A DNA stretch of 64,000 bases from Phycisphaerales bacterium (GTDB lineage: Bacteria; Planctomycetota; Phycisphaerae; Phycisphaerales; UBA1924). Positions 54,883 through 64,000 of this stretch are shown in pieces. Below the pieces are notes generated by a model that was given only the letters and a program-made list of their open reading frames with translations, had not been told where the DNA came from and did no database searches. The translations under genes were made by a program, and so were the position numbers. Positions within the stretch are counted from its first letter, which is position 1. The number at the start of each line of letters is the position of its first letter. The DNA is taken from positions 1-64,000 of the forward strand of contig JALUWX010000006.1 of NCBI GenBank assembly GCA_027019265.1, written 5' to 3'.

Positions 54883-55713
54883 ATGGGGGGGCGCATGCGA
54901 GTTCGTCGATCCTGGATCGGGATCACTGTGCTGCTCGGGCTCGGGGTGCTCGGCGCTTTTGCGCCCAACGGGGCTCCGAGGATGCCGACGATGGAGAAAC
55001 CCGATCCGTCGGCGCTGCTCGAGGGGGTGGTCCATCGGGTGATCGATGGGGATTCCGTCGAGTTGTTCGTGAACGGTCGAGTGGGGAGGTTCGAGCTGTC
55101 CGGGGTGGATGCGCCGGATCTGCTTGATGGGCGGGAATCGCAGGTCCCCGGCGCGATGGCCGCAAAGCAGACCCTTGAGCTGCTGATCGTGGGTGAACGC
55201 TTGTCGGTGATGATCGATCCCGCGCGGCCGGAGGATGCGGCGGGTCATGCTCGCGCGTTCGTGTTCCGGGATCCGGATCGGACTCTCGTGAACCTGGAGA
55301 TGGTTCGGCTCGGGCTCGCGAAGCACCCTCGGCGTCACGGGTCGTGGAACTCACCCGTGTTCGAATGGGCGCAGGAGCAAGCTCGATCCGCTCGGAAAGG
55401 GATCTGGGATCCCGAGTTCGATGTCCAGCCCGAGCTCGAGCGTATCGAAGAGGATCAGAAACCCGAACCTGAGGTCGTCGAGCCATCGCCGGAGACGAAA
55501 CCCGCGCGGGTTGTTCCGGAGCCCGAACCCGAGCCCGTGGTGTCCGCGACTCGGGGGGACACGGTGTACGTGACCAAGAGCGGATCGAAGTACCATCGGG
55601 AGGGGTGTCGTCACTTGGGGGATGATGGGGGACGCGCGATGGAGCGGGAGCTGGCCCGGAAGTCGTTTGAGCCCTGCAAGGTGTGTCGCCCGGACGATCC
55701 GGACGAGGACTGA
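54883..55713 (+). CDS. Exported staphylococcal nuclease-like protein with Cys/His C-terminal motif
   Basis: The 276-residue protein has a signal anchor (RRSWIGITVLLGLGVLGAF, about 8-28), an SNase (thermonuclease) domain at about 46-180 (GVVHRVIDGDSVELFVNGR, SGVDAPDL, HARAFVFRDPD, LVNLEMVRLGLA), a Glu/Pro-rich linker, and a C-terminal VYVTKSGSKYHREGCRHL...FEPCKVCRP segment with a Cys-x-His...Cys-x-x-Cys pattern like the short zinc-binding tails seen after other SNase domains. It is likely a periplasmic or secreted nuclease. The start could be ATG 54883 or 54895. Confidence 0.83.
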   Translation: MGGRMRVRRSWIGITVLLGLGVLGAFAPNGAPRMPTMEKPDPSALLEGVVHRVIDGDSVELFVNGRVGRFELSGVDAPDLLDGRESQVPGAMAAKQTLELLIVGERLSVMIDPARPEDAAGHARAFVFRDPDRTLVNLEMVRLGLAKHPRRHGSWNSPVFEWAQEQARSARKGIWDPEFDVQPELERIEEDQKPEPEVVEPSPETKPARVVPEPEPEPVVSATRGDTVYVTKSGSKYHREGCRHLGDDGGRAMERELARKSFEPCKVCRPDDPDED

Positions 55714-55763
55714 ACGGGTGTTCAGTGTGTCCCTGATCGGGGTGATTGACCGATAGATCGGTC

Positions 55764-57572
55764 ATGTGCGGGATTGTCGGGATCATTTCGGAGAACCCCG
55801 GTGTGAGAGCGCCGATCGTCGCGATGCGCGACGCGTTGTCCCATCGTGGTCCGGACGGGGTGGGGGTGCTGGACACGGGTCATGTCGCGCTAGGGCACAC
55901 CCGTCTCCGGGTGATCGATACGAGCGATCATGGGGCGCAGCCCATGTCCACGATGGATGGACGGTTCACGATCGTGTACAACGGGGAGCTCTACAACGAC
56001 CACGAGGTCCGTTCGGAGCTCGCTTCGATGGGGGTGGTGTTCCGGACGGGGTGTGATACGGAGACGGTGCTCCATGCGGTCGCCGTCTGGGGGCTCGGGG
56101 CCGGGGATCGGCTCCGTGGGATGTACGCGTTGTGTGTGGTGGATCACGGATCGGGGATGTGCGTGCTCGCGCGGGACCCGCTCGGGATCAAGCCCTTGTA
56201 CACATCGACACTCGGGGACGGCTCGCTCGTCTTCGGATCGGAAGTGGGCGCGCTGCTCGAGCACCCGTTGGTGTCGAACGAGCCCGATCCTGGGTCGATG
56301 AGCGCGTACGTCACGAACATCCGTCCCGGGTACGGGGGGCGGACGATGTTCCGCGCGATCGGGTCCCACGAACCGGGGCGATGGTCGCTCGTGTCGCTCT
56401 CGACGCGCGGGGTGATCGCTTCCCGTGTGGTGACGACGGATCCGGAGCACGGAATGCGCGATCCGGGTGAGACGAGGGGGGTGATCGAGGACTCCGTGGT
56501 GCGCCATCTCCGGACGGATGTCCCGATGTGTGCGCTCCTGTCTGGGGGGCTCGACAGCGCGATCGTTTGCTCGATCGCGAAAGCGAGATTGGGAGCGCTC
56601 CACACATTCTGCGCCGGTGCTCGGGGGACGGGTCACGATGACGACTTCGCGTTTGCGCAGGCGCTGAGCGAGCGCATCGGGAGCGAGCACACGGAGGTCG
56701 AGGTCTCGCGGGATGTGTTCCTGTCACGATGGATCGAGATGATCGACGAGTCGTGTGTCCCGATCTCGACCCCGAACGAGATCGCGATCGATCGGGTGAG
56801 CCGATCGCTCCGGGATATGGGGTTCGTGGTGGCGTTGTCGGGGGAGGGCGCGGACGAGCTGTTCGGGGGGTACGAGGTCCCGATGCGCCAGGCGCTTGCG
56901 TTCGCGGAATCGGGGGACGAGACACGCGCGGGCGCGTTCCATCTGCTGACGAATGCGTGGATGAACCCGGAGCACAAGGATGTGATGTGCACGTCGGCGA
57001 TGCTTGAGAACTCGGATTCCGACGGCGAACTCGCCGGTTGGTATCAGCGGGTGTACGAGCGTGCTCGCGCGTCGTGCGATGACCCGGTCCAGGCGCATCT
57101 GCTCTTCCATCAACGCGTGAACCTGACGAATCTGCTCCGTCGTCTCGATGCGCGGACCATGCGCCACGGGGTGGAGGGGCGGACCCCCTTCGCGGATCTC
57201 GAGGTCGCGCGGTTCGCGAATGCGATCCCGATGGGGTCCAAGTTCGTGGGTTCGGACCCCGCATTGACGAAACAGTGTCTGCGCGAGACGTTCGCGGCGG
57301 ATCTCCCCGAGTCGATCGTGTCCAGACCCAAAGCGAGCTTCCCCATGCCCTTCGAGCGTTGGGTGTCGTCGATGGCGCCTGTGCTGCTCTCGTCGGAGGT
57401 CGCTCGGGAATGGTTTACGGAGAGCGCGATCGAGCTGGTCGCACGGGATGCGACGCGCCACTGGAATCTTGCGTGGCCGATGCTGAACCTGGTGCTCTGG
57501 GGGGAGCGGATGTATGGGGATCGGGGATTGGCTCGACGGGTGCTCGATGAACAGGCCGCGGCTCCGGTGTGA
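55764..57572 (+). CDS. asnB: Asparagine synthase (glutamine-hydrolysing)
   Basis: The 602-residue two-domain enzyme makes asparagine from aspartate, ATP and glutamine. Cys2 (MCGIVGII) is the glutaminase nucleophile, which fixes the start at 55764. The glutaminase domain includes SHRGPDGVGV and VYNGELYND. The synthetase PP-loop is SGGLDS at 260-265, with ALSGEGADELFGGYE and GRTPFADLEVARFA downstream. AsnB homologues also act in surface polysaccharide clusters (amidotransferases), so a substrate other than aspartate is possible. It is convergent with the esterase gene, with no bases between the stops. Confidence 0.92.
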   Translation: MCGIVGIISENPGVRAPIVAMRDALSHRGPDGVGVLDTGHVALGHTRLRVIDTSDHGAQPMSTMDGRFTIVYNGELYNDHEVRSELASMGVVFRTGCDTETVLHAVAVWGLGAGDRLRGMYALCVVDHGSGMCVLARDPLGIKPLYTSTLGDGSLVFGSEVGALLEHPLVSNEPDPGSMSAYVTNIRPGYGGRTMFRAIGSHEPGRWSLVSLSTRGVIASRVVTTDPEHGMRDPGETRGVIEDSVVRHLRTDVPMCALLSGGLDSAIVCSIAKARLGALHTFCAGARGTGHDDDFAFAQALSERIGSEHTEVEVSRDVFLSRWIEMIDESCVPISTPNEIAIDRVSRSLRDMGFVVALSGEGADELFGGYEVPMRQALAFAESGDETRAGAFHLLTNAWMNPEHKDVMCTSAMLENSDSDGELAGWYQRVYERARASCDDPVQAHLLFHQRVNLTNLLRRLDARTMRHGVEGRTPFADLEVARFANAIPMGSKFVGSDPALTKQCLRETFAADLPESIVSRPKASFPMPFERWVSSMAPVLLSSEVAREWFTESAIELVARDATRHWNLAWPMLNLVLWGERMYGDRGLARRVLDEQAAAPV

Positions 57573-58583
57573 TCAGTCGTCGCTGTGTTGATCCGCGCAC
57601 CACTTGAGTGCTTGGTAGAGCAGTTCGTCGCGCGATCCACCGCTCGGGATCTCGTGCCCCATGCCTTTGACGGTAACGAGGGTCACGTCCGCGCCTCTTT
57701 CTTTGAGCTCTCGTTTCGCTTGGACATAGGTCCTGGACCACGGGTCCCGTGACCCCGAGATGAGCGCGATGGGGGGGAGGGTGACATCCTCGTCCGCTTC
57801 GACAAGCTGGGGTTCGTAGTGCCCGCAGATCGGGACAACCCCTGCGAAGAGGTCCGGGTGGGTCTGCGCCATGGTGATCGCGATGTTCGCGCCCTGGGAG
57901 AACCCGAGGAGATAGACCCGATCGGGATCGATCCCGTGTTCCTCGGCGGCCCATTCGATCATGTGCTCGACCATCCATTCGGATTCGTCCCGGTAGGTCC
58001 AGGAGAACCCTGCTCCTGATGGGCGGAGCGCGTCGGGCGCGACGAGGACCATCCCGAGACGATCGCACGCGGAGCGGAGGGGGTTGAGCATGTCGTTGCC
58101 GCGCATCCCCGTGCCGTGGAGGGCGAGGAGGAGCGGGGGGGGCTCGTCTCTGACGCTCGGGACATGGACGCGCGGGGTGTGATTCCTGGCTTCGGCGATG
58201 TAGCTTTCGAGACGGGCTTGCGCGTTCAAGCGGACCGTGTCGAGGATCGTTGTGAACCGTTCGTCGTCCCGGAGTGGGTCGAGGTCCTCGGATTGTTCGA
58301 AGGATCGGACCCCGGTATACCCGAGCTCGGCGCACGTCTCGAGTTCCTCGATCGCTCGGTCGTGCTCCCCGAGACGCGCGAGCATGGAACCGAGATTGAA
58401 GCGCCAGACGGAAGACTTGGGGTATCGATCGACGATGGCCTGGGCTGTTGAACGGGCGATGTCGTACTTCTCTCTCGAGACGAGTGAGTCGTAGCGATCG
58501 ACGAGGGCTTGGTCGCTCTGCGCGAGGACGGCGGGTGAGCAGAGCACGAAGAGCAGCGCGATCAGGATGGTGGTGCGTGGCAT
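57573..58583 (-). CDS. Exported alpha/beta-hydrolase (esterase) with N-terminal TPR-like part
   Basis: The 336-residue protein has a signal peptide (LIALLFVLCSPAVLAQ). Residues 25-115 form two helical hairpins like TPRs (SVWRFNLGSMLARLGEHDRAIEELETCAELGY). The hydrolase domain then starts at about 150 with ALHGTGMRGND (oxyanion region), nucleophile Ser229 in GFSQG, Asp280 in GSRDPW and His310 in GMGHEIP. It resembles phospholipase/carboxylesterase and PHB-depolymerase relatives; the substrate is unknown. AAAGGGG precedes the ATG. Confidence 0.85.
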   Translation of the reverse strand: MPRTTILIALLFVLCSPAVLAQSDQALVDRYDSLVSREKYDIARSTAQAIVDRYPKSSVWRFNLGSMLARLGEHDRAIEELETCAELGYTGVRSFEQSEDLDPLRDDERFTTILDTVRLNAQARLESYIAEARNHTPRVHVPSVRDEPPPLLLALHGTGMRGNDMLNPLRSACDRLGMVLVAPDALRPSGAGFSWTYRDESEWMVEHMIEWAAEEHGIDPDRVYLLGFSQGANIAITMAQTHPDLFAGVVPICGHYEPQLVEADEDVTLPPIALISGSRDPWSRTYVQAKRELKERGADVTLVTVKGMGHEIPSGGSRDELLYQALKWCADQHSDD

Positions 58584-58635
58584 GGGGTCCCCTTTCCACC
58601 ATGTCCGTGCGATCCGTCGGGTGTGTTCCGTCGGA

Positions 58636-59595
58636 TCAGGCGCTTCGGTTTTTGAGCTGTTCGCGTTGGATGCGCATCGCGAGTCGTTCCAGGACTTTAC
58701 GCTGGGGCGCGTGCATGTCCCGCGCATCAGGGTGGACGAGGAGGGTCCCGACCCGGCAGGTCGAGCCCTGGAGGTCCTTGGACTGGCGCATCTCGACGAC
58801 GTAGTTCGTGGGTTCGGGCTCCTCGGGGAGCTGGAACGAGAGCACGAGGCGTTCGAATCGGTCGAGCTGCATTGCGGAGACGTTGTACATGAGGATCCCG
58901 AGCCCGTTCGGGGTGAGGTCCACGAGCCGGGCGACGGCGTGGGGGGTCTCGGTGGTCATGACCCGTTCCATGATCTCGTTCCAGTCGATCGGTGGGGGCT
59001 CGGGCGCGTCGGGGTCGTCGCTGGGCTCGGGGAAGAGCGACTCTTCACGGATGGCGGCGAGGAGGTTGGTGTAGCGGGTGTTGTTGGTCGAGAAGTTCAT
59101 CGAGCTCGGGGCGCTGTTGCCCTTCCGGACCCGGTCGAGGAACCAGAGCCTGACTTCGACATCGCCCCAGGAGACGGGGAGCGAGACCCGGTAGGCCGCT
59201 CTCCGGTCACCCTCACGGATCTGGATGGGGTCCTTGAGCTTGACGGCGCTGACGATCTTCTGTTCGTTGAGTCGTTCGGGGGTGTCGATGTAGGTGATCT
59301 CGGACTCGAAGGTGATCATGTGTCCGTTGAACATGAAGAACGCTTCGACCCGCGTGGTGGAGTTGAAGTCGGTTTCTCTCCCGATGATCTGGAGTTTCTC
59401 GATGACGAGCTCGCCGTCGTTCCATTCGAGGAGGCGCCCCTGCGCCATGGGATCGACACCCGAGCGACCGAGACGGACGATCCCGATCGAGGCATTCCGC
59501 TCGACGGCTTCGCGCAGCATCTTGAGATAGCGCTCGCTCGAGTTGGAGCTGGTGCTCTTGCTGCTCTTCGTGTTCTTGTTGCGTTTGGAGAACAT
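58636..59595 (-). CDS. PilZ-domain (c-di-GMP effector) protein
   Basis: The 319-residue cytoplasmic protein has a Lys/Ser-rich N-terminus, a YcgR-N-like beta domain (about 40-120: GRLLEWNDGELVIEKL, FMFNGHMITFESEITYI) and a PilZ domain. PilZ motifs are EGDRRAAYRVSLP (RxxxR, Arg132-Arg136) and DLTPNGLGI (226-234, the D/N-x-S/T-x-x-G motif), separated by an unusual insertion of about 80 residues. It probably binds c-di-GMP and controls motility or adhesion. It is monocistronic, 52 nt before the esterase. Confidence 0.8.
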   Translation of the reverse strand: MFSKRNKNTKSSKSTSSNSSERYLKMLREAVERNASIGIVRLGRSGVDPMAQGRLLEWNDGELVIEKLQIIGRETDFNSTTRVEAFFMFNGHMITFESEITYIDTPERLNEQKIVSAVKLKDPIQIREGDRRAAYRVSLPVSWGDVEVRLWFLDRVRKGNSAPSSMNFSTNNTRYTNLLAAIREESLFPEPSDDPDAPEPPPIDWNEIMERVMTTETPHAVARLVDLTPNGLGILMYNVSAMQLDRFERLVLSFQLPEEPEPTNYVVEMRQSKDLQGSTCRVGTLLVHPDARDMHAPQRKVLERLAMRIQREQLKNRSA

Positions 59596-59645
59596 CGCGG
59601 GTGTGTGATCGGACGGATCGGGGGCTCGCTCGTGTGAGATCGGCT

Positions 59646-59727
59646 GAATTCGGGGGGATCGGGGTCGTGGGCCACTGGATTCGGGGGATCTGATTCAGGA
59701 TTCGGCGTATTCAGGATCGGTGAATTC
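59646..59727. repeat. Repeats upstream of the first PEP-CTERM gene
   Basis: ATTCAGGAT occurs twice with a 16-nt period (59693-59701 and 59709-59717), and GAATTC next to a G5/C5 run occurs at 59646 and 59722. They are candidate operator half-sites for the gene at 59826; TATATG near 59745 could be its -10. Confidence 0.4.
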
Positions 59728-59825
59728 CCCCAGAATTTGGCACATATATGGGGCGATTCCCTTGCATCGCGGATCGTGTGGGTCATGTTCTCGGACATAC
59801 ACACAGGTTCTCGAGGGGAGCATCC

Positions 59826-60368
59826 ATGACACGCACCGCATTCACGATGGCCGCCGGACTCGCTTGTTCGTCCGTCGCGCTCGGACAGACCTTCAACCTC
59901 GGGCTGTACGAGGGGCAATGGGACAACAACACGTTCGGGTCCACGGGTGGCGCGTCCGTGCTGATCGATGACCTGGGTGGGGGGGCGCTCGGGATGACGA
60001 TCGACCTGGACGGGTTCGTGTTCGGGCTCGGGGATCCCGGGCCGATCTCCGTCTCGGGGATGCTCATGGGGGACACGTTCACCCTCACCCCCCAGAGCGA
60101 TCCGCTCTACGGCGACATCTCGGGCGGGGTCGATGACATGGGGAATCTGAGTGTTGATCTCGTCGATGCGGCGATGGGGGATTTCGCGTTCGTCACGCTC
60201 CGGGGGACGGCGATCGCGGACTCGATCCAGTTCGACTACACGATTTTCACCGAGGCCGGGACGGCGCCGTTCGCGGTGGGTGAGGTGAATGTGCGTTTGG
60301 TTCCCGCGCCGTCGGCGATCGCGCTGCTCGGGCTCGGGGGGCTGGTGTCGCTGAAGCGTCGTCGCTGA
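59826..60368 (+). CDS. Small secreted protein with PEP-CTERM-like tail
   Basis: The 180-residue protein has a signal peptide (AFTMAAGLACSSVALGQ), a beta-rich middle (QWDNNTFGSTGGASVLIDDLG, IDLDGFVFGLGDPGPI, LSVDLVDAAMG) and a C-terminal sorting tail VPAPSAIALLGLGGLVSLKRRR of the PEP-CTERM type (P-x-P, hydrophobic stretch, basic end), processed by exosortase in other bacteria. No exosortase gene is in the window. The ATG at 59826 is chosen because the frame upstream is not signal-like. The downstream gene is of the same class. Confidence 0.78.
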   Translation: MTRTAFTMAAGLACSSVALGQTFNLGLYEGQWDNNTFGSTGGASVLIDDLGGGALGMTIDLDGFVFGLGDPGPISVSGMLMGDTFTLTPQSDPLYGDISGGVDDMGNLSVDLVDAAMGDFAFVTLRGTAIADSIQFDYTIFTEAGTAPFAVGEVNVRLVPAPSAIALLGLGGLVSLKRRR

Positions 60369-60386
60369 GATTGGAATGAGGAGAGG

Positions 60387-61088
60387 ATGATGAACATGAT
60401 CAAAGCCACCACACTTGTGCTCGCGGCCGCGGCGAGCGTCGCGCTCGCTGATATCCAGTACGTCGGTGATCCCGGTCTGGAGTTGGTGTATTCGTTTGCT
60501 GACGAGGGGGGGACCCGGACCCTGTTCATCAACGTGGACGGGCGCGAATCGCACGACCTGGAGTTCAATATCCTCAACGACTTCGAGTTCGGGGACTTCT
60601 ATGTTGCCGGGCTCGATTCGACCCGGAACGGGGGGTTCCTGACGTCGTTCGATGACAACGACTACGGGGTGCTCCAGTCGCTCCAGTTCGGGACGGGGAT
60701 CGGTCCCGAGCTCGAGGACCAGATCGGATTCGAGACCCTCTCCCATGCGGGGTATCTGTACGACGCGTTCGGGAATCCGGAGAGCGGGGGGATGCTCCTC
60801 GGCGGGACCCATTACCTCGGGTTCTCGTTCATGGGCTACATCCCGGACCCGGACAACATCGGCGAAGAGATCCTCGTCCCGATGTGGGGGTGGATGCACG
60901 TCGAGTTCGGGATGCTCCAGCTCGATGCGGGGCGCGAAGTGGGTGACGAACCCGAGGTCTTCGTCCGGGTGCTCGAGTACGGGTACGAGGACACGGGGTC
61001 CGCGATCTTCGTCGGGCAGGTGCCGTCCCCCGGTTCGCTGGCGCTGCTCGCGCTCGGCGGGTGTGTCGCGGCTCGGCGCAAACGATGA
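60387..61088 (+). CDS. Second secreted protein with PEP-CTERM-like tail
   Basis: The 233-residue protein has a signal peptide (ATTLVLAAAASVALA), a Gly/Asp/Glu-rich beta region (YVGDPGLELVYSFADEGGTRTLF, ESHDLEFNILNDFEFGDFYVAG, SFMGYIPDPDNIGEEILVP) and the tail VPSPGSLALLALGGCVAARRKR. Three in-frame ATGs (60387, 60390, 60396) follow GAGGAGAGG; the spacing favours one of the later two. It is 18 nt after the preceding PEP-CTERM gene and probably in the same operon. Matrix-attached adhesion or binding is likely, but the ligand is unknown. Confidence 0.75.
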   Translation: MMNMIKATTLVLAAAASVALADIQYVGDPGLELVYSFADEGGTRTLFINVDGRESHDLEFNILNDFEFGDFYVAGLDSTRNGGFLTSFDDNDYGVLQSLQFGTGIGPELEDQIGFETLSHAGYLYDAFGNPESGGMLLGGTHYLGFSFMGYIPDPDNIGEEILVPMWGWMHVEFGMLQLDAGREVGDEPEVFVRVLEYGYEDTGSAIFVGQVPSPGSLALLALGGCVAARRKR

Positions 61089-61356
61089 ACATCGGATGAT
61101 CCTCGCGCCCCCGGGTGAACCCCGGGAACCGCGCGGGGGACGATCCGTATCGATGATGTCCGGAGCGCGGCGCGCGAGCTGTGTGCGCGGGGCGCTGCCG
61201 ATCGGGGTTCTCTCGATCGGGTGACTGTGTTGACAATCCGAGGGGACGTCGTGGGGACGGGCTCTGGAACAGCCCGAGCGATCGGTGTGTCCGCTGTGGA
61301 CCCCGGGCTCGGGAGATGTCTCATTGGTCCTCGTGGGTGCAGGAAAGGAGCGCATC

Positions 61357-61632
61357 ATGCTCATGCTGACTCTGACAACGGCGTTGTGTATCCAGCTCGG
61401 AACGATCGATCCCCTCCACGGAACCCTCGAACGGGCTGAACCCGTGTCGATGACGTCCCCGGACTCGATCACGAGCGGGAACCTCATCGCGGATCTCAAC
61501 GGCGACGGGGTCGTGGACTTCCTCGACGTGTCCATCTTCATCCAGTGCCTGAACACGGGGGCCGCCTGCGCGGACCTGAACGGGGACGGGGTGGTGGACT
61601 TCTTCGATGTCCAGCTGTTCATCGCCGCTTGA
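61357..61632 (+). CDS. Mini-protein consisting of a signal peptide and a dockerin-like module
   Basis: The 91-residue protein has a short hydrophobic N-terminus (MLMLTLTTALCIQL), a 25-residue linker and two calcium-loop repeats: DLNGDGVVDFLDVSIFIQCL and DLNGDGVVDFFDVQLFIAA. In larger planctomycete proteins, including the one at 48381, this module is a C-terminal appendage; here it is nearly the whole protein. GGAAAGGAG precedes the ATG. A hairpin formed by ATCGCCGC/GCGGCGAT (61621-61648) straddles the stop codon. Confidence 0.7.
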   Translation: MLMLTLTTALCIQLGTIDPLHGTLERAEPVSMTSPDSITSGNLIADLNGDGVVDFLDVSIFIQCLNTGAACADLNGDGVVDFFDVQLFIAA

Positions 61633-61720
61633 GTTCGTCGGCGGCGATCTCTCCAGCGCCCCGCGCCGATCGGAAGGTCGGCCGGGGTGTTCGTGTGCGC
61701 GCTGAAACGGGACCCACAAC

Positions 61721-61829
61721 GAACTCGATCATCACCCCACCCAGGGTGATGATCGAGTTCTCTAGATCGTGTGTATTGCTCGTTAAATCAATCTCGATCA
61801 TGGCTGGGGGTGGGGGGGTGATCGAGTTC
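61721..61829 (+). repeat. Hairpin module 1 (stem core AACTCGATCA)
   Basis: The left end is a perfect 17-bp palindrome (61721-61737 with 61744-61760) around a C/A loop. After 32 bp comes an inverted, imperfect copy: arms CTCGATCAT (61793-61801) and TGATCGAGTTC (61819-61829) around a G-rich loop. Reverse-complemented, the right end aligns with the left end along its length. Confidence 0.85.
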
Positions 61830-61857
61830 GAGAGCGTTGTTCGATCACGACCAAGTC

Positions 61858-62074
61858 AACCCGACCAACCCCGCACCCCCGGGTGGTTGGCTTGGTTGAT
61901 TGGCTCAGATGAATATGTGTTCTTTCTCTCTCAAGGGGGTTCATCCCGACCAAGCCCGCACCCTCGGTTGGTTGGTATGGATCAATCTCTCTTTTTACAC
62001 GCTCAGAGGGGTTCATCCCGACCATGTCATCCATACCAACCAACCCCGGAGGGGGGTTGGTTGGTATGGATGAC
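61858..62074 (-). repeat. Hairpin module 2 (stem core ACCAACCAACC)
   Basis: This module is inverted relative to module 1. The perfect 22-bp palindrome is at 62026-62047 with 62053-62074 (loop GGAGG). The imperfect partner is at 61942-61982, whose 61966-61982 arm is identical to 62055-62071. A further partial copy lies at 61858-61898. A 17-nt direct repeat (61936-61952 and 62008-62024) precedes both hairpins. Confidence 0.8.
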
Positions 62075-62099
62075 GGGGGGAACGTGCTCGGTCGGTCGG

Positions 62100-62233
62100 G
62101 TTGATCCGGATCATCTCCCCCCCACAGGGAGATGATCCGGATCAACACACACGGGTCTACACACACAAAACCCTCTTGAGAGATCAGAAGTCAATCCGGA
62201 TCATCGCTGGGGGTGGGGTGTGATCCGGATCAA
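62100..62233 (+). repeat. Hairpin module 3 (stem core TTGATCCGGATCA)
   Basis: The left end is a perfect 20-bp palindrome (62100-62119 with 62127-62146). The right end is an inverted copy with arms ATCCGGATCAT (62194-62204) and TGATCCGGATCAA (62221-62233) around a G-rich loop. It has the same layout and orientation as module 1 but an unrelated stem sequence. Confidence 0.85.
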
Positions 62234-62266
62234 TGGGGCACCCTGGGGGGTTGATCCGGATCGATC

Positions 62267-62450
62267 CATGTGTGGGTGACCCCCACCCCGGACGACCCAC
62301 ACATGAAACCAACAGATGAAAGACAACAGATGAACCAAGAGAGAGAAAGAGAGAGAGAGAGGTGACCGAGAGCAATCAACTGGTGTGTTGATGTGTGGGT
62401 CCATCCATGTGTGGGTTCCCCGGGGAGGGGGGAACCCACACATGGATGGA
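62267..62450 (-). repeat. Hairpin module 4 (stem core CATGTGTGGGT)
   Basis: This module is inverted. The imperfect end is at 62267-62277 with 62295-62305 around a C-rich loop. The perfect 22-bp palindrome is at 62400-62421 with 62429-62450 (loop GGGGAGG). The core between the ends holds the GA microsatellite. Confidence 0.85.
62338..62362. repeat. GA dinucleotide microsatellite
   Basis: A 25-nt purine run, almost pure GA with one AAA interruption, inside module 4. Confidence 0.9.
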
Positions 62451-62592
62451 GCCCGACGATCGGGTTCGGGTGGGAGGAGTGTCCGTCGGGGGATCGGTTC
62501 GTGGAGGATGTGGAGGAGGTTTGGTGGGGAGTCGGGATCCACAACTAGTGGAGTGCCATTTTCGGTCATATGCCACATGTTTTCGCAGTTGG

Positions 62593-62598
62593 TATACT
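62593..62598 (+). promoter_or_regulatory. -10 element TATACT of the low-GC two-gene operon
   Basis: TATACT ends 8 nt before the ATG at 62607, in a locally AT-rich stretch. No Shine-Dalgarno sequence is present, so the transcript is probably leaderless. Confidence 0.55.
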
Positions 62599-62606
62599 GG
62601 CATCAG

Positions 62607-63125
62607 ATGGCTGCACCAATCTTCACACAGCATGAAGCAGATCACCTGATCACGGTCAAGAAAAATGCGATTCTTGACGCTTGGTCTGAAAAAACGACGG
62701 ATCGACAGAACAGCATCGAGTCAGCAGTTCTTGAAGGTGAATCAGATGAAGCAACGCCGGTACCTGTGAGAGTCATTTTTCATCGAAAGCTCGATGTTGG
62801 GTCGACAAATATCACGCTAGAGGCCATGCTTCCAGGCAGGCCGATGGCAGCATTGTGCAGGTATGACATCCACGATTCCCCACATCTGAACAAGAAACAA
62901 TGGATGCGGCCACCTGATCTGATTCCACCGTCTGCGCCCCACAGGCATATTTACAGTGAGCGATCTGAGAGAGAGATTGGTGTCTGGGATGCACGCGCCG
63001 AACTCCTTGACCCAAAGCGATGCTCATCTCGAGAGAGGCTGCTTGGCGCTTTTTTATCAGACATGCGGTTTCATTTTACTGATAATGAATCACAACAAGA
63101 ACTGTTCGAGTGGATCAACCAGTGA
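62607..63125 (+). CDS. DUF6978-like protein, first gene of a low-GC pair
   Basis: The 172-residue product starts AAPIFTQHEADHLITVKKN, close to the TQEEADxLIxxEK start of DUF6978 proteins. It also has the LVRLD-like CRYDIHDSPH strand and a C-terminal HRHIYSERSE matching the family's PHxHxYxE. DUF6978 members are small proteins of unknown function usually found with a DUF1828 gene, as here; both statements are from memory. GC content is clearly lower than in all flanking genes and codon use differs, suggesting transfer. Its stop overlaps the next start (GTGA). An ATG at 62577 is an alternative start. Confidence 0.62.
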   Translation: MAAPIFTQHEADHLITVKKNAILDAWSEKTTDRQNSIESAVLEGESDEATPVPVRVIFHRKLDVGSTNITLEAMLPGRPMAALCRYDIHDSPHLNKKQWMRPPDLIPPSAPHRHIYSERSEREIGVWDARAELLDPKRCSSRERLLGAFLSDMRFHFTDNESQQELFEWINQ

Positions 63126-63871
63126 AACTTAAAACTCTACACAAACTGATGTGCAGCGATCTCGATGTCGAGCATCACGTGGTATCTGATCGGGAATTTT
63201 TATCCAGCAGATTTCAATATGCTGACGGTGATTTGGTTTGTGCTTACTACAACGAAGGCCGAAACGGGCCGTCGCTTACGGACCGCGGAAACACCCTCTA
63301 TAAATTAAAGATAAGAGGACTGTCCCTTGGCGAAAATCGCATTGATTTAATTAGAAAGCTGCTTGCTCCACACGGTGTCGATCTTGTCGGAAGTGAAATC
63401 GTCAGACCACTAGAACCAGCGTCGCCCCAGAGATCTTTTATAGATTTTTGTATAGCAGTCGAACGAGTGTCCACACTTGAGATTCAGTTCGCACACAAAA
63501 AACCGAACTATCTCGCTCAAATGATGGATTATTTAATCACTGAAAGAGTAGAGCCTGCGCGATCTGTACTGAGAGGTTGGACATCCAGCACTATCGACCC
63601 CATGGGTGCGTACCCTATTGATTATTATTGCAATGGATCGGCAAACACAAGGTGTTTATTCACTGTCGCAAACAGGGAGAAGGGGCTACTTGTATCTGCA
63701 GTCTGCAACTATTTCAAAGCTCACAATCAATACAGTCCGACTCTTGTAGTATTTGATTCTGATTCTCCGCTACCAGAGAAACACGTCAGCCGTGTTCGTG
63801 AGTCTGTCGATGAAGTCGTATTCGGGCTCTCAGGGTTTGAGGATAGAGTTGTTGACTTCGCATTGTCTTGA
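63122..63871 (+). CDS. DUF1828-domain protein, second gene of the low-GC pair
   Basis: The 249-residue product has the DUF1828 core at about 15-90: DREFLSSRFQYADGDLVCAYYNEG, SLTDRGNTLYKLKIRG and RKLLAPHGVDLVGSEIV, the usual strand-turn-strand with TDxG. The C-terminal half (about 95-249) has the DUF1829-like pattern ending FGLSGFEDRVVDF. The reaction is unknown; such genes are common on phages and islands. GTG 63122 overlaps the previous stop by 4 nt; an upstream GTG at 63110 is also open. Low GC as for its partner. The pair looks like a two-component accessory system, toxin-antitoxin or defence, which is inference only. Confidence 0.68.
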   Translation: MKLKTLHKLMCSDLDVEHHVVSDREFLSSRFQYADGDLVCAYYNEGRNGPSLTDRGNTLYKLKIRGLSLGENRIDLIRKLLAPHGVDLVGSEIVRPLEPASPQRSFIDFCIAVERVSTLEIQFAHKKPNYLAQMMDYLITERVEPARSVLRGWTSSTIDPMGAYPIDYYCNGSANTRCLFTVANREKGLLVSAVCNYFKAHNQYSPTLVVFDSDSPLPEKHVSRVRESVDEVVFGLSGFEDRVVDFALS

Positions 63872-63876
63872 ACGAA

Positions 63877-64000
63877 TCACCACTCCGGCCCACCAGTGTA
63901 CCGCCCGTAGATATCCGCCATCGCTTGCACCATCTCCCCGAGGGTGCAGTTCGCAAGCGCCCCGTCCACCAGCGCGGGCATCACGTTCTTGTTGTCCCGC
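63877..64000 (-). CDS. 3' end of a methylmalonyl-CoA mutase-type large subunit (partial)
   Basis: Only 40 codons and the stop are in the window; the gene continues to the right on the minus strand. The tail reads RDNKNVMPALVDGALANCTLGEMVQAMADIYGRY when translated, matching the end of the acyl-CoA mutase catalytic domain (NxMPxLxxAxxxxxTLGExxxxxxxxxGxY). The domain stops here without the B12-binding half, so either a separate small subunit or a mutase-alpha type is implied. Base composition is host-like, unlike the neighbouring operon, which ends 6 nt away and is convergent. Confidence 0.7.
   Translation of the reverse strand, partial: RDNKNVMPALVDGALANCTLGEMVQAMADIYGRYTGGPEW

Follow-up and report, generated by a model that had tools for sequence, protein, structure and literature searches.

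The window analysed here, a stretch of 64,000 nucleotides from a Phycisphaerales genome, contains nine hairpins within 730 bp, at positions 61721-62450, and the question that this locus raises is whether they form a conserved functional element or a product of local mutation. A first-pass annotation had described four modules of paired hairpins with stems unrelated between modules, and had considered selection on the fold to be likely. As outlined below, the observation is real and extreme, although parts of the description had to be corrected, selection on the fold is not established, and the locus is most likely a local palindrome array that homogenises itself.

Layout of the hairpin array

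The array is located between a dockerin-domain gene, which ends at 61632, and a low-GC cassette of two genes (62607-63871), and it consists of four perfect hairpins and five imperfect partners. In module 1, the perfect hairpin a1 (61721-61760, plus strand; 17 bp arms and a 6 nt loop, CACCCA) is followed by the imperfect hairpin b1 (61790-61829, minus strand), which carries the loop GCTGGGGGTGGGG on the plus strand. Module 2 begins with an outer imperfect hairpin, b0 (61856-61899, plus strand), and a second imperfect hairpin, b2 (approximately 61941-61985, plus strand), the right arm of which recurs in the perfect hairpin a2 (62026-62074, minus strand; 22 bp arms, 5 nt loop). Remnants of a different arm flank a2 on either side (62010-62023 and 62084-62104), and the second of them is a half hairpin, without assigned strand, in which the left arm and the loop of b0 recur in inverted form (86% over 21 nt). 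Module 3 combines the perfect hairpin a3 (62100-62146, plus strand; 20 bp arms, 7 nt loop) with the imperfect b3 (62191-62233, minus strand), which has the same loop as b1, GCTGGGGGTGGGG, and the arm of this module recurs at 62249-62262 as a half hairpin, again without strand. In module 4, the imperfect hairpin b4 (62267-62305, plus strand; 11 bp perfect arms, loop of 17) precedes the perfect a4 (62400-62450, minus strand; 22 bp arms, 7 nt loop). The spacers between the inverted palindromes of a module measure 29-94 nt.

The arms of 17-22 bp and loops of 5-7 nt in the perfect hairpins are as first described. The four modules are present as well, with the amendment that module 2 holds two imperfect hairpins plus relics and module 3 an additional arm copy. 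The nine hairpins were aligned using MAFFT, which places left and right arms in different registers, and in this alignment modules 1 and 3 are oriented one way and modules 2 and 4 the opposite way, while all nine have a common loop core, consisting on the C-rich strand of C-runs that are mostly interrupted by a single A or T. Both the orientations and the C-rich core thus agree with the original description.

Fold stability and rarity

When the region 61700-62460 was folded as single-stranded DNA, the fold z-score was -12.0, and none of 20 shuffles was equally stable. The four perfect hairpins have folding energies of -19 to -28 kcal/mol (z-scores of -8.4 to -9.4). For the five imperfect hairpins the z-scores range from -1.6 to -4.0, and the excess over shuffles is modest for b0 (-1.6, with 16 of 200 shuffles as stable) and b2 (-1.9, 11 of 200). 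When the array region was shuffled 20 times under a Markov model, arms reached at most 10 bp. With perfect arms of at least 11 bp and a loop of at most 30 as threshold, the other hairpins in the window were those at 62222-62262 and 62267-62305, both in the array, and one with 12 bp arms at 650-677. A second scan, for near-perfect arms with a score of at least 15 and a loop of at most 12, covered 744,759 bases of the own genome (a 24% sample) and found four such hairpins, all of them in the array. In 1,722,600 bases from relatives, comprising 20 stretches and 80 loci around a mutase gene (see below), there were six, never two within 1 kb. The array is therefore real and far beyond chance.

The hairpins could have been generated by assembly or amplification, as fold-back chimeras. 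Hairpins are known to cause trouble for assembly, and this genome is in 122 contigs. Fold-backs, however, copy unique flanking DNA perfectly, whereas in the array one hairpin is present in both imperfect and perfect form, each with its own spacers, and the contig continues on both sides into genes that are found together in relatives. We therefore consider an artefact very improbable.

Stems are shared within modules

Homology between modules 1 and 3 is clear and extends to their stems, with a local alignment score of 46 compared to a maximum of 31 in 100 shuffles. The claim that stems are unrelated between modules is, for this reason, only partly true: four of the other module pairs fell inside the null distribution, and the alignment of modules 1 and 2 was marginal (26 versus a null maximum of 25). 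Modules 2 and 3 have a 15-nt spacer word in common (93%), with a score, 25, that lies inside the null (maximum 31). When the two 380-bp halves of the array were aligned as wholes, there was no excess over shuffles (53 versus a maximum of 55), so that a single tandem duplication of an entire half is not supported.

Between a1 and a3, 4 of the 17 base pairs differ, and all four differences are double changes that preserve pairing, confirming that structure is kept while sequence changes. Two adjacent changes among these (T-A to C-G and C-G to G-C) are also found between b1 and b3, and hence occur in all four arms. A third difference between b1 and b3 converts a T-T mismatch into a pair. The likely selection on the fold that had been deduced from such changes does not follow, since each perfect hairpin has a stem that is identical over 12, 17, 13 and 14 nt (modules 1 to 4) to that of one imperfect partner in its own module. 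Selection on a fold would maintain pairing inside a hairpin, yet it is insufficient here, because it would not give two separate hairpins one and the same new stem; arm copying between inverted repeats accounts for both. Stem identity between separate hairpins thus favours arm copying over selection on each individual fold, and the compensatory stem changes in the array probably reflect such copying.

A comparison of shared words pointed in the same direction. The longest words common to hairpins within a module were 12 nt in module 1, 9, 10 and 17 nt in module 2, 13 nt in module 3 and 14 nt in module 4, compared to 5-13 nt for the 30 pairs across modules, where the longest word is loop sequence (Mann-Whitney p = 2e-4, for pairs that are not independent). 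The exception is b0, which has 9-10 nt in common with its mates in module 2, no more than some pairs between modules. The clearest case is a2, since its palindrome (62026-62074) contains the right arm of b2, identical over 17 nt, and the complement of this arm. Together with the flanking arm relics, this relation between a2 and b2 fits perfect arms that were copied from an imperfect repeat; an ancestral strain was not found.

Search for further copies

No second copy of the array was detected in the own genome, either by BLAST, for which the best 4 and the best 2 candidates were scored, or by a search for the loop motif. BLAST against 396 other genomes of the class (best 2 candidate places each) gave short and weak matches in 6 of them, and against 100 other relatives (best 4 candidate places each) weak matches in 3; scoring the best 2-4 places per genome could miss distant copies. 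One weak match, in G042, comprises part of a1 and a single imperfect hairpin. The class-genome matches at query positions 627-674 (G088, G151, G210, G246 and G429) overlap a GA repeat at 62336-62361, and the remaining matches lie at query positions 518-547 (G246, in the class-genome search) and outside the array (G055, in the search of the 100 relatives). Three exact patterns had no matches in viral contigs, and two phage records and one plasmid record, with E values of about 1, were taken as chance. Neither was a comparable array present at the equivalent site beside the mutase gene in the relatives inspected.

The loop sequences were also tried as probes. There are five exact places of GCTGGGGGTGGGG in the genome, two of which are the array, and at the other three the loop lacks any hairpin whose arms reach 12 bp. 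Allowing up to one mismatch gave 72 places, 30 of which became loci and were scanned. This motif alone is uninformative because the reversed motif is equally frequent (41/39 versus 36/36). The pattern CCCCWCCCC (242/251 places) was rejected as well, since it reads alike backwards and its control is necessarily identical.

The array was not found in other genomes by BLAST, at the best 2-4 places per genome, or at the relatives' sites, so that it largely corresponds to one local duplication restricted to this strain, the very case that the first-pass annotation had set against its own proposal. In the titles and abstract openings of the open-licence literature, we found no description of a bacterial array with conserved loops and module-specific stems. 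A 2026 survey covers hairpins in 118,019 genomes (PMC13155455).

Comparison with REP elements and other hairpin elements

The annotation had stated that no described element has this layout, which is too strong. BIMEs and REP dimers are described as pairs of inverted palindromes, they are intergenic, their palindromic pairing is kept despite sequence variation, and REPs and their dimers are reported for Planctomycetes too; palindromic terminal inverted repeats (TIRs) are a further described form (PMC2817692, PMC3733652). Comparable pairs occur in relatives, although the array does not belong to that family. BIMEs, REP dimers and REPtrons have in common with the array that two inverted palindromes are separated by a short spacer in intergenic DNA. 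Unlike BIMEs and REPtrons, the array has no common foot motif, its stems vary between modules within one genome, only one locus was found, and long perfect arms are combined with C-rich loops. TIRtrons have inverted terminal repeats around a Y1 transposase gene, some of these repeats being palindromic themselves, with the TIR motif GGGGWSAS (PMC3733652). The array differs in that no transposase gene was found in or beside it, and this motif occurs once, at b4, and not at every hairpin. Repetitive hairpin and double-hairpin elements of mitochondria resemble the array, with single and double hairpins in intergenic DNA, yet in the sponge mitochondrial elements the stems are conserved and the loops vary, which is the opposite of the array (PMC2800124).

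A RAYT/REP family of ordinary type is also present in the genome. Its single Y1_Tnp transposase gene (28.9 bits, cut-off 23) is situated between inverted GGTGCCCTGCTTT REP hairpins, forming a RAYT unit (contig C20 of the genome, G000; locus L091, 14683-15294). The genome's REP is GGTGCCCTGCTTT-like, as judged from 21 of the 32 distinct places of one pattern. As in REPs and BIMEs, inverted palindrome pairs are present in the array. The remaining REP properties are missing. Within 61641-62520 there is a single REP foot (GGTGCC), next to b3 at 62237 on the minus strand, the REP stem of this genome is absent from the array, and its hairpins have no stem common to all. REP-like dispersal was not seen, the array being found at a single locus by BLAST of the best 4 and best 2 candidates, by loop motif and in the 24% hairpin sample. 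Nor is there a cognate RAYT, as the sole Y1_Tnp gene is flanked by GGTGCCCTGCTTT hairpins and not by array hairpins. Tagged REPs have GTAG or CGTC at one end of every unit (PMC3733652). In the array a GTAG tag is found once, at 62157, within a spacer, and CGTC/GACG tags at four places, three of them near a2, b4 and a4 and at differing positions relative to the stem. As a REP of this genome, the array was therefore rejected on foot, tag, shared stem, dispersal and cognate transposase.

Relatives do contain paired inverted hairpins with differing stems. In 1,861,067 partly overlapping bases there were 10 matches, 8 of them distinct, since two modules were counted twice from overlapping loci; the finder requires ungapped outer arms and recovers one of the four window modules (module 4), which makes these 10 a lower bound. 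Five of the eight distinct pairs have a GTGCC or GTGGCAC foot. One REP pair (L116, 18331-18428) has outer stems that differ (CACGCCTTG versus CACTGCTTG), each still paired, with a compensatory change inside a hairpin and none common to both hairpins.

These data bear on the possibility that the modules belong to a mobile element, as its ends or as miniature versions of it, either resembling BIMEs/REPINs or forming palindromic TIRs, and that they are recognised as single-stranded hairpins by a Y1-type transposase. This is consistent with the gross layout of inverted palindromes around a 29-94 nt spacer, with the differing-stem pairs in relatives, with the inverted REP hairpins that bracket the genome's single Y1_Tnp gene and with the GGGGWSAS word at b4. 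The stem identity would equally be expected if the two hairpins within a module had to pair with each other as terminal inverted repeats. However, the genome's own REP is of the GGTGCCCTGCTTT type, its stem is absent from the array and its foot GGTGCC is present once, REPs are dispersed and the array was found at one place, the five tested ORFs of at least 80 aa that overlap the array have no Pfam match, and by eye no target duplications are evident. On balance we regard a mobile element as unlikely.

Neighbouring genes and the mutase-side site

The cassette to the right of the array contains two low-GC genes on the plus strand, the first (62607-63125) with a weak match to DUF6978/PDC-M24A (20.9 bits, below the Pfam cut-off of 29.6) and the second (63110-63871) with a DUF1828 domain (29.5 bits, Pfam cut-off 22) and a match to PDC-M24B. 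It resembles the PADLOC candidate defence pair PDC-M24 (DUF6978 plus DUF1828; 17.5-24.8 bits) and has no NCBIfam match. A relative of the DUF1828 gene was found in none of 149 other genomes of the family, was confirmed in none of 34 candidate stretches in genome contigs, and was not found in plasmids.

The array could be a functional cis element that controls this DUF6978/DUF1828 cassette from the 974-nt gap upstream of it, or a structured RNA. It lies directly upstream, its folds are very stable, and same-strand promoter-like sites are present inside the array (62176-62204) and after it (62570-62598), two compared to 0.5 expected. On the other hand, Rfam 15 gave no family at gathering score over 55000-64000, the seven matches with E values of at most 1 being miRNA models with 22-33 bits versus cut-offs of 65-82, and no intrinsic terminator, a G+C-rich stem followed by a T run, was found in the array. 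A regulatory or RNA role thus appears rather improbable. The hairpins of integron attC sites are enclosed by the boxes RYYYAAC and GTTRRRY. The region 61700-62470 contains one GTTRRRY and no RYYYAAC/GTTRRRY pair on either strand.

The last cassette gene ends 5 bp from the stop codon of a methylmalonyl-CoA mutase gene, the 3' end of which lies in 63872-64000 (Pfam MM_CoA_mutase, 664 bits). A comparison within the genus comprised 14 stretches downstream of the mutase gene, 9 of them longer than 11 kb. The genes for asparagine synthase (asnB) and an alpha/beta hydrolase, located left of the array, co-occur near the mutase gene in 6 of these 9 long stretches, and the PEP-CTERM gene has a good match in two stretches and a 22-residue match in a third. 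The sequence between the mutase gene and these conserved genes varies among relatives. From 347 mutase loci the best 80 were kept, and 34 of those were inspected. In 33 of the 34, the GC content in the 500 bases past the mutase stop is below that of the gene, sometimes only slightly. Because variable, mostly lower-GC DNA follows the mutase stop in relatives, the mutase 3' end looks like an insertion hotspot in Phycisphaerales, with the array inside it. In 2 of 33 tested loci the tail of the mutase gene is present twice, and within the window there was no tail copy near the array that could be an integration scar.

Several side observations were made at these loci. The two extra tail copies, in L129 and L134, lie a few hundred bases further on (87.5% over 72 nt and 79% over 48 nt). 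Among the 80 loci (L123-L202), 7 of 15 long hairpins are situated within 1.5 kb past the mutase gene, a zone that makes up 9% of the scanned sequence (post hoc binomial p = 1e-4). In L199, from another planctomycete, a lone perfect 25-bp hairpin with an 11-nt loop (1835-1895) is found 740 bp past the mutase gene, and in L180 two hairpins bracket an ORF of 193 aa that, by eye, resembles a Y1 transposase.

Origin and meaning of the array

The array looks like a local hairpin that multiplied and copied its own arms, and not like a novel type of element conserved for a function. We put the probability that it is a local mutational product, arising from local amplification and homogenisation of inverted repeats, at roughly 55%. 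At a hypervariable intergenic site, duplication and inversion of one ancestral hairpin with a C-loop would have resulted in the nine hairpins, and polymerase template switching, or conversion between inverted arms, would then overwrite arms with copies of neighbouring arms. Such copying would make some hairpins perfect and give each module one stem, with the modules drifting apart, and the C-run core would be retained since loops are not copied from arm to arm. The copying may be recent, and the array probably lacks an adaptive role. No related strain showed the array at an earlier stage, and thus no copying event was observed.

Homogenisation of inverted-repeat arms by template switching (quasi-palindrome correction) has been described, and the template-switched repeats resemble the array in imperfect arms turned perfect, multi-base changes and arm identity (PMC8604942). 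That case concerns single repeats in yeast genes, whereas the array has nine hairpins, with apparent copying also between hairpins.

Nine hairpins with a maintained loop core represent more order than neutral decay usually leaves. In addition, long perfect hairpins tend toward instability, and their survival might for that reason need some benefit. An adaptive or mobile role for the array is possible, although the present evidence does not support it. A speculative variant, to which we give little credence, is that the array edits itself: hairpin pairs whose C-rich and G-rich loops are complementary would stimulate template switches among their own arms, the stem of each module being continually rewritten in concert and the loops staying fixed. 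If this were true, the array would act in cis to generate new stem sequences within an insertion hotspot.

Compensatory stem changes are normally taken to indicate selection on a fold. In the array they coincide, with a clarity that is unusual for a natural example, with identity between separate hairpins, which calls for caution in the covariation-based discovery of structured RNA and single-stranded DNA elements. The array would also be well suited, as a natural substrate, to measurements of bacterial template switching.
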